A DNA stretch of 60,736 bases from an uncultured Thiothrix sp. (GTDB lineage Bacteria; Pseudomonadota; Gammaproteobacteria; Poriferisulfidales; GCA-002705445), in assembly GCA_902595225.1 (NCBI GenBank), contig CACJPG010000005.1, forward strand, positions 1 through 60,736, read 5' to 3'. The notes below the pieces were generated by a model, which saw only the letters and a list, made by a program, of their open reading frames with translations, was not told the DNA's origin and did no database searches. The first letter of the stretch is position 1. Each line of letters starts with the position of its first letter. Below are positions 58,118 through 60,736 of the stretch, piece by piece. Position numbers and translations under genes: made by a program.

Positions 58118-59031
58118 GAACAATAAAAATTAACTACGAATTTATGAAATGGCATAAACTTGCCGTTTATATTTCAGTTTTTTTAATAATCATATCTCTG
58201 CTAAGTATTTTTTTTAAAGGGTTTAATTATGGTGTTGATTTTAAAGGTGGCACACTAATTGAAATAAGCTTTAATAAAGATGCCCCCATTGATGAAATTA
58301 GAGATTTTCTTGAAGAAAATAACTATAGCAAATCTTCAGTTCAATATTTTGGATCAAAAAGTGAAATATTAATAAGAATGCCAAATATTCTTTCTACCAA
58401 TGAGTCAAACCTGAGTAATGATCTAATTGAAAATCTGAAAAATAAATTTGATTTTTCTCTTAAGCGAGTCGAGTATGTTGGAGCACAAGTTGGAGAAGAG
58501 CTTAGAGATCAGGGTATTCTTGCAGCACTAATAGCTTTAATACTAATAATGATCTATATTGCACTAAGATTCGAATACAGATTTTCTGTTGGTGCAATCT
58601 TAGCTTTAATTCACGATGTACTTTTGATCATGGGTTTGTTTTCAATTACTCAAATTGAATTTAATTTAAGTGTTTTTGCTGCAATACTTGCTGTAATAGG
58701 ATACTCTCTTAACGACACCATAGTTGTTTTTGACAGGATAAGGGAAAATTTTAAAGCGGCTATCATTGAAAATACGAACACTGTTTCGCTTATTAATGAA
58801 TCTATAAGCCAAACATTATCGAGAACCTTAATAACATCATTGACAACTATTTTAGTTTTAATTTCTCTTATATTGTTTGGTGGTGAAATATTATTTGGTT
58901 TTTCTTTTGCTTTATTAATTGGCGTAATAATTGGAACATACTCTTCGATTTATATTGCAAGCTCTACATTGCTATTGTTAAACATATCTGCGAAAGATGT
59001 AACAATTGAAGTTGACGAGGAAAAGCCTTAA
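58114..59031 (+). CDS. secF: protein translocase subunit SecF
   Basis: SecF has the same overall plan as SecD: a first helix, a small periplasmic domain with GVDFKGGTLIEISF, then helices with VGAQVGEELRDQGILAAL and AAILAVIGYSLNDTIVVFDR, and the TLSRTLITSLTT segment. Length is 305 aa (E. coli 323). The start ATGA overlaps the secD stop. The 3' end overlaps the convergent suhB stop by 4 bp, so no terminator separates them. Confidence 0.97.
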   Translation: MRTIKINYEFMKWHKLAVYISVFLIIISLLSIFFKGFNYGVDFKGGTLIEISFNKDAPIDEIRDFLEENNYSKSSVQYFGSKSEILIRMPNILSTNESNLSNDLIENLKNKFDFSLKRVEYVGAQVGEELRDQGILAALIALILIMIYIALRFEYRFSVGAILALIHDVLLIMGLFSITQIEFNLSVFAAILAVIGYSLNDTIVVFDRIRENFKAAIIENTNTVSLINESISQTLSRTLITSLTTILVLISLILFGGEILFGFSFALLIGVIIGTYSSIYIASSTLLLLNISAKDVTIEVDEEKP

Positions 59032-59825
59032 ATTTTCCCTTTCAGGGTCCCAATGATCTCTTTGTGTAAATTTGGATTCGCAGCAAGTACGTTACCAGAG
59101 TCAAAATAATTATCATTATTTTCTATATCGCTTATATAACCGCCTGCTTCAAGAACAATTATTGATCCTGCAGCAATATCCCAAGGCTTTAAATTAAACT
59201 CCCAAAAACCATCAAGACGTCCACAAGCAACATATGCTAAATCTAAAGCTGCCGCGCCAAGTCTTCTAATACTTCCACATCTTGCATTCATTAGCGCTCG
59301 AAGTGTTTCAATATATACTCCTGAGTGGTCTTTTTTTCTATATGGAATTCCAGTACCAAAAACAGCAGATTTTATTTTTTGACAACTCGATACTCTAATT
59401 CTTTTATTATTTAAAAGAGCTCCCTTTCCTTTTTCTGCACAGAAAAGTTCGTTTTTAAATGGATCATATACTACTCCTAGTATTGGAACTTTTTTTTTGC
59501 ATAAACCTATTGATATAGCAAATTGTGGAATTCCATGAATAAAATTTGTTGTACCGTCTAATGGATCTATAAACCATTCATAGTCTGAATTAATATCATT
59601 TGAGCCACTTTCTTCAGCAGTTATTTTATATTTCGGATAAGACTTTTTAAGAGCGTCGGTAATAATTAATTCTGATTCTTGATCTGCTTCTGAAACATAA
59701 TCATTGAAACCTTTAGATGTGATTTTTAAGCTATCAAGTCTTGAGTAAAACCTCATCACAGATTTTCCAGCAAGCAAAGAGGCATTGACAGCAGTATTTA
59801 ACTGAGGACTAAAAGTATTATTCAT
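59028..59825 (-). CDS. suhB: inositol-1-monophosphatase family protein SuhB
   Basis: This lithium-sensitive phosphatase-family protein of 265 aa has the metal motifs ITAEESG, FIDPLDGTTNFIHGIPQFA and WDIAAGSIIVLEAGG, plus RRLGAAALDLAYVACGRLDG. In gammaproteobacteria SuhB also works with Nus factors in rRNA antitermination. The divergent suhB/trmJ pair next to iscR is typical for the class. The gene is tail-to-tail with secF. Confidence 0.96.
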   Translation of the reverse strand: MNNTFSPQLNTAVNASLLAGKSVMRFYSRLDSLKITSKGFNDYVSEADQESELIITDALKKSYPKYKITAEESGSNDINSDYEWFIDPLDGTTNFIHGIPQFAISIGLCKKKVPILGVVYDPFKNELFCAEKGKGALLNNKRIRVSSCQKIKSAVFGTGIPYRKKDHSGVYIETLRALMNARCGSIRRLGAAALDLAYVACGRLDGFWEFNLKPWDIAAGSIIVLEAGGYISDIENNDNYFDSGNVLAANPNLHKEIIGTLKGKI

Positions 59826-59898: not shown

Positions 59899-60618
59899 AT
59901 GATTGATTTATCAAATATAAAAATTGTTCTTTTAGAGACGACTCATCCTGGAAATATAGGCTCTGTTGCAAGAGCGATGAAAACCATGAACTTTAGCAAT
60001 TTATACTTAGTAAATCCTCTATGTCAGATAAATGAAATCTCATTCGCAATGGCTTCAAATGCTCGAGATGTTTTAGATAATGCAAAAATTTATAACAATT
60101 TAGAGGAGGTTACAGATGACTGTGATTTTATTATTGGGACAACTGCTAGACAAAGGGATATTCCAATTGAAATTGTTAATCCTAGAGAGTTATCAGAAAA
60201 CATTAAAACTAGCCAGTATGAAAAAATTGCAATTTTGTTAGGCAACGAATCAAGAGGTTTAACAAATCAGCAGTTATCTAAATGTAGAGTTGGTTGCCAC
60301 ATACCAGCAAACAAATCTTATACAAGCTTAAATATTGCTGCTTCATTACAAATAATTTTGTACGAAATATTAATGGAATCACGATATAGTGTCTCAAATA
60401 TTAATAAAGTTGATAGGAAAAATCGTGCAAAAAATGATCAATTCTCATCCTTTTTAGAACATATGGATAAAGTGCTGAAAGATATAAATTTTGTGAAAGA
60501 TGATAGACCAACAATTTCCAGAAAAATCCAACATATATTCAATAAAGCTGACCTCACAGAGGAAGAAATTAACATTCTACGTGGCATCCTAAGTGCAATT
60601 GAGAATCATTCTCAATAA
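59899..60618 (+). CDS. trmJ: tRNA (cytidine/uridine-2'-O-)-methyltransferase TrmJ
   Basis: This SPOUT-class enzyme methylates ribose at position 32 of tRNAs. Signatures are IVLLETTHPGNIGSVARAMK, LYLVNP, FIIGTTARQRDIPI, ILLGNESRGLTNQQL and the knot region CHIPANKSYTSLNIAASLQI. Length is 239 aa (E. coli 246). It is upstream of iscR, the usual order. Its last codons contain a perfect 19-bp palindrome listed separately. Confidence 0.96.
   Translation: MIDLSNIKIVLLETTHPGNIGSVARAMKTMNFSNLYLVNPLCQINEISFAMASNARDVLDNAKIYNNLEEVTDDCDFIIGTTARQRDIPIEIVNPRELSENIKTSQYEKIAILLGNESRGLTNQQLSKCRVGCHIPANKSYTSLNIAASLQIILYEILMESRYSVSNINKVDRKNRAKNDQFSSFLEHMDKVLKDINFVKDDRPTISRKIQHIFNKADLTEEEINILRGILSAIENHSQ
60598..60616. 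promoter_or_regulatory. perfect 19-bp palindrome of Fur-box type
   Basis: The sequence ATTGAGAATCATTCTCAAT is a perfect inverted repeat of two 9-bp arms around one C. Its core TGAGAATCATTCTCA has the 7-1-7 pattern of known gammaproteobacterial Fur sites. It lies over the last codons and stop of trmJ, about 30 bp upstream of the iscR -35. Regulation by Fur is inference. A coding coincidence is possible, since the DNA also encodes the last residues of TrmJ. Confidence 0.55.
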
Positions 60619-60641
60619 AATCAATAACATATAAACAAATA

Positions 60642-60666
60642 ATAGTTGACAATATTACTGGGTTAA
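60642..60666 (+). promoter_or_regulatory. IscR type-1 binding site overlapping the iscR promoter
   Basis: The half-site ATAGTTGAC at 60642-60650 matches the type-1 IscR consensus left half exactly. The right part (TTACTGGGTTAA, 60655-60666) matches it with few differences. It covers the -35 element, as expected for autorepression of the isc operon by [2Fe-2S]-IscR. Confidence 0.65.
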
Positions 60667-60674
60667 ATCATTAT
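60646..60674 (+). promoter_or_regulatory. iscR promoter
   Basis: A perfect -35 TTGACA lies at 60646-60651 and CATTAT (4 of 6) at 60669-60674, with a 17-bp spacer. Transcription would start near 60681, about 26 bases before the iscR ATG. Confidence 0.6.
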
Positions 60675-60706
60675 TGCAGTATTAGTAAATAATGACTTAA
60701 TGAAAT

Positions 60707-60736
60707 ATGAAATTAACGACAAAAAGTAGATATGCT
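60707..60736 (+). CDS. iscR: Fe-S cluster regulator IscR, first ten codons only
   Basis: The window ends after ATG plus nine codons encoding MKLTTKSRYA, which matches the IscR N-terminus (MRLTSKGRYA in E. coli). The call is supported by the trmJ-iscR order and by the IscR-type site and TTGACA promoter just upstream. IscR senses Fe-S cluster status and controls isc genes, which would follow outside the window. Confidence 0.85.
   Translation, partial: MKLTTKSRYA

Follow-up and report, generated by a model that had tools for sequence, protein, structure and literature searches.

A probable Fur operator within the last codons of trmJ, upstream of iscR

Gene content of the suhB-trmJ-iscR region

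The window, that is, the whole stretch of 60,736 nucleotides analyzed here, ends with suhB (59028-59825, minus strand), its divergent neighbor trmJ (59899-60618, plus strand) and the beginning of iscR (ATG at 60707, plus strand), which is cut by the contig end at position 60736. TrmJ, a tRNA 2'-O-methyltransferase, matches both NCBIfam TIGR00050 and the Pfam SpoU methylase family above cut-off. In the relatives read, iscR is followed by iscSUA and hscBA, with an annotatable fdx in two of the three. The IscR protein of one relative (protein id: P0001) has the IscR family TIGR02010 as its best match, at 196 bits, which is below the cut-off of 207.6.

Upstream of iscR, a predicted -35 hexamer, TTGACA (60646-60651, plus strand), is invariant across nine genomes and is separated by a 17-nt spacer from a predicted -10 hexamer, CATTAT (60669-60674, plus strand). 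These two elements place the start site near position 60680. The -35 hexamer is covered by a predicted IscR site, ATAGTTGACAATATTACTGGGTTAA (60642-60666, plus strand), which agrees with the ATAGTTGAC...-type 25-bp IscR type-1 pattern, has a core that is invariant in the alignment, and corresponds to the equivalent part of the iscR promoter in E. coli MG1655, so that it is E. coli-like in both sequence and position. An IscR type-1-like site over the -35 is likewise found in the iscRSUA promoters of E. coli, Klebsiella and Pseudomonas aeruginosa, and the gene order suhB-trmJ-iscR is that of E. coli.

There is no intrinsic terminator between trmJ and iscR in the interval 60400-60736, and read-through from trmJ into iscR is therefore possible. 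The end of trmJ is followed by an A/T-rich block, AAAATCAATAACATA (60617-60631), in which 13 of 15 positions are invariant in the genus; the block is missing from a second genus of the same family, represented by genome G011. It contains a weak IHF-like match (8/9, at 60619-60631), but one strand of the genome holds 637 such matches, and no IHF site is claimed here; IHF-like alpha and beta genes are encoded in the genome.

A Fur-box-like palindrome in the last codons of trmJ

The sequence ATTGAGAATCATTCTCAAT (60598-60616) is an inverted repeat without mismatch, its two 9-bp arms flanking a single central base pair (9-1-9). Its core, TGAGAAT-C-ATTCTCA, has the form of a Fur box, which is a 7-1-7 repeat near TGATAATNATTATCA. 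The palindrome spans the final six codons of trmJ (ATT GAG AAT CAT TCT CAA) and the T of the TAA stop codon, and the spacing from its end to TTGACA is exactly 29 nt, which puts its center near -74 relative to the predicted start site. An earlier note on this DNA had described a perfect 19-bp inverted repeat of the 7-1-7 Fur pattern inside the end of trmJ, some 30 bp before an iscR -35 that is itself covered by an IscR site, and each element of that description agrees with the sequence. A second promoter overlapping the palindrome was considered and rejected, as the hexamers there are poor by eye.

Against the extended Fur consensus AATGAKAATNATTMTCATT the palindrome scores 17/19, falling short of the full score by a single base in each outer arm. 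It is the only 19-mer in the 1.01-Mb, 31% GC genome that combines a Fur score of at least 17/19 with a 9/9 palindrome, against about 0.08 expected by chance (mean over 12 order-3 Markov genomes), and the whole genome contains no second copy with one mismatch or fewer. Perfect 9-1-9 palindromes of any sequence are by themselves not rare (37 in the genome versus 18 expected), and the weight of the argument therefore rests on the match to Fur and on conservation.

Conservation of the site in related genomes

The seven other genus genomes in which TrmJ was found encode proteins that are 64-76% identical, and iscR begins about 87-101 bp after trmJ in all of them. The palindrome is retained with at most one change in every genus genome assessed (8/8, counting the window's own); in genome G010, the single change raises the Fur score to 18/19. 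Across trmJ codons 233-238, all 161 pairs of codons for the same residue in the eight genomes are identical (161/161), compared with a background of 52% for codons 1-232 and 84% for the best trmJ window clear of the site. Similarly, degenerate columns with an invariant residue are codon-invariant in five of five cases within codons 233-238 versus 6 of 105 elsewhere in the gene.

In G011, where TrmJ is only 51% identical, the site reads GTTGAGAAGCATTCTCAAT, with two changes and the core retained, and all five testable codons are unchanged against a background of 42%. This version scores 15/19 only, as do a few unrelated promoters by chance, and its distance to TTGACA is 7 nt shorter. The site thus passes the comparison of synonymous positions in relatives that the earlier note had proposed. 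Loss of the palindrome from close relatives with the protein end intact, which that note had named as the observation that would count against it, is seen neither in the eight genus genomes nor in G011. Taken alone, such conservation shows some constraint at the site, on either DNA or RNA, and is not specific to Fur.

Fur and a second Fur box in the genus

The genome encodes a canonical Fur (G000:C1:258141-258557; NF006999, 177.8 bits versus a cut-off of 146), whose best PDB match is the Fur structure 1mzb and whose recognition helix is near-identical to it. A second protein of the FUR family is Zur-like and adjoins znu genes.

A scan of the genome for other Fur sites, also proposed earlier, found a like box before an iron-uptake gene. 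This box, AATGAGAAATATTATCATT (G000:C4:71440-71458, minus strand), precedes fbpA and is kept in all genus genomes (11/11); apart from it and the iscR site, no strong box recurs at a single orthologous position throughout the genus. The best solved relatives of the fbpA product are ferric-binding proteins of the FutA/FbpA type. The trmJ palindrome shares the half-sites TGAGAA/TTMTCA with the classical fbpA-type Fur boxes to which this one belongs. The two boxes differ in position: that of fbpA overlaps the predicted spacer and -10 of its promoter, whereas that of iscR lies upstream of the -35.

These observations suggest that the palindrome is quite likely a Fur operator, placed in the last codons of trmJ, that would provide a direct iron input to iscRSUA-hscBA beside autoregulation by IscR. 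The earlier interpretation of the element as a Fur site on isc is thus supported, as a prediction from motif and conservation.

Alternative explanations

The element could instead work as RNA: the trmJ mRNA would carry an 8-bp hairpin at its 3' end, with effects on its stability, on 3'-end processing or on read-through into iscR. The strand does fold, at -6.5 kcal/mol (z -2.8), into a stem of 8 bp closed by a 3-nt loop, but the stem is followed by AAAATC with no T-run, so it is not an intrinsic terminator. Moreover, the sequence itself is fixed, beyond what pairing would require, and G010 loses an outer pair without a compensating change, yet gains in Fur score. The same motif before fbpA is intergenic and less palindromic. 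A role as RNA is therefore unlikely, although it fares better than the remaining alternatives.

Slightly less likely still is recognition of the palindrome by another regulator, either some other factor or IscR at a second site. In favor of this, the AAAATCAATAACATA block is conserved in the genus to the same degree as the palindrome, and a larger complex may sit there; in addition, the E. coli iscR promoter has, upstream of the site over the -35, a second stretch that is IscR type-1-like. However, none of the hallmarks known for IscR type-1, IscR type-2 and Zur sites is present in the palindrome, which fits both the Fur pattern and the fbpA box, while the Zur-like protein is the sole other member of the FUR family in the genome. 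It is very improbable that protein constraint on the TrmJ C-terminus, together with codon bias, mimics DNA conservation at a site with no regulatory role: an A-[IV]-E-[NK]-H-S tail is indeed kept in all family genomes, but third positions are fixed in the last codons (including GAG in a genome of 31% GC, where nearby Glu codons vary), codons 225-231 just upstream are only 29% identical, and in the genus the bases that follow the stop codon, although non-coding, are just as fixed.

Taxonomic range of the Fur-type box at iscR

In two other families of the same order (f2 and f3), the region upstream of iscR differs and contains no such box. The best Fur score among 86 iscR upstream regions of other gammaproteobacterial genomes is 15/19, which is about the level of shuffled sequences, and that among 61 further regions from named genomes is 14/19. 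Thus, none of these 147 iscR promoters outside the family, in two sets that may have a few species in common, carries a comparable Fur box or scores above 15/19. The best score in the iscR promoter of E. coli MG1655 is 11/19. A class-wide search for a Fur box combined with AGTTGAC found iscR solely in the window's own genus. As judged from these promoters, a Fur-type box at iscR is a feature of this family among the families sampled.

In E. coli, suf is under Fur control, iscSUA is a target of RyhB, and isc is a target of IscR (PMC11559095). In K. pneumoniae, the iscR promoter was not obviously affected by deletion of fur (PMC4169559), with which a remark in a later paper, that Fur represses IscR in this species (PMC10470599), is in conflict. 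The isc-suf operon of Caulobacter was tested and is not directly regulated by Fur (PMC11475020). The earlier remark that dual input of Fur and IscR on isc would be unusual is borne out by the 147 promoters, by E. coli and by the Klebsiella deletion and Caulobacter studies alike. A search of the open-access literature found no published Fur box at isc; most subscription journals lie outside that search, and a report may exist there.

Iron-sulfur cluster assembly in the family

No SUFBD core protein is detected in the 12 genomes of the family searched, whereas all 14 control genomes are positive; ISC therefore seems to be the family's sole system for iron-sulfur assembly. RyhB RNA is likewise undetected in the 12 genomes (0/12), with a positive result for the E. 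coli control.

The closest known parallel to the predicted operator is that of E. coli sufABCDSE, through which Fur feeds iron status to an iron-sulfur operon that is also controlled by IscR (PMC9628965, PMC11559095). In the present family, in contrast, SUF is undetected and the predicted site is at isc, in the end of the upstream coding sequence and about 74 bp before the predicted start. No Fur box is present at the E. coli iscRSUA promoter, and that of K. pneumoniae shows no obvious response to fur deletion. The isc-suf operon of Caulobacter resembles the present case as a single assembly operon under IscR, which is induced there by iron starvation, and differs in that direct regulation by Fur was looked for and not found (PMC11475020).

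Proposed regulation of isc by Fur and IscR

We infer both the binding of Fur to the palindrome and the sign of the regulation. Iron-loaded Fur would bind around -74 from the predicted iscR start, with the IscR site over the -35 lying downstream of it. Iron-dependent restraint of isc, with relief under iron limitation as for Fur on E. coli suf, is slightly favored. It might be exerted, for example, if Fur hinders read-through from trmJ or access to the promoter region. Because the site lies upstream of the promoter and not over it, simple occlusion is not obvious and is slightly disfavored. With the opposite sign, iron-loaded Fur would activate isc directly from upstream, an arrangement that would spare scarce iron, as RyhB does on E. 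coli isc. The 7-nt shift in G011 does not amount to a full turn of the helix, which slightly disfavors an activator whose contact depends on strict helical phasing.

With a little better than an even chance, in our judgment, iron control has been rewired in this streamlined gammaproteobacterial family, in which ISC is the sole detectable system and RyhB is undetected: the Fur operator would be on isc and not on suf, and Fur, responding to iron, and IscR, responding to cluster status, would jointly set expression of this one essential pathway. The control of iron-sulfur assembly is known mostly from bacteria with two assembly systems, or as the action of IscR alone on isc. If the proposal is true, it shows how iron supply can be coupled to cluster assembly, via a Fur operator on the sole assembly operon, in a lineage that lacks both SUF and RyhB. 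The probable Fur operator on isc, conserved and embedded in coding sequence, would also be an example of a regulatory site inside a gene that is betrayed by frozen synonymous codons.

Other Fur-like sequences

A ferritin-like gene of the same genome (G000) is preceded, at a distance of 200 bp, by a Fur-like sequence that lies within a small gene (C2:113790) and, at 18/19, outranks the iscR site. This sequence has no conservation in the genus, and it was therefore treated as chance and dropped as a Fur site.

Two genera of the family (G009:C20 and G011:C27) also have Fur-like palindromes of the form TGATAATNATTATCA in the interval that separates a smg-like gene from a divergent def gene, which encodes peptide deformylase. 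In one genome, a palindrome, ATGAGAATAATTCTCAT, lies between znuA and a gene for a 422-aa protein (G005:C1:62914). One unrelated gammaproteobacterium has, before an erpA-like gene for an A-type carrier, a Fur-like box together with an IscR type-1-like site (G163:C29:21050-21086).
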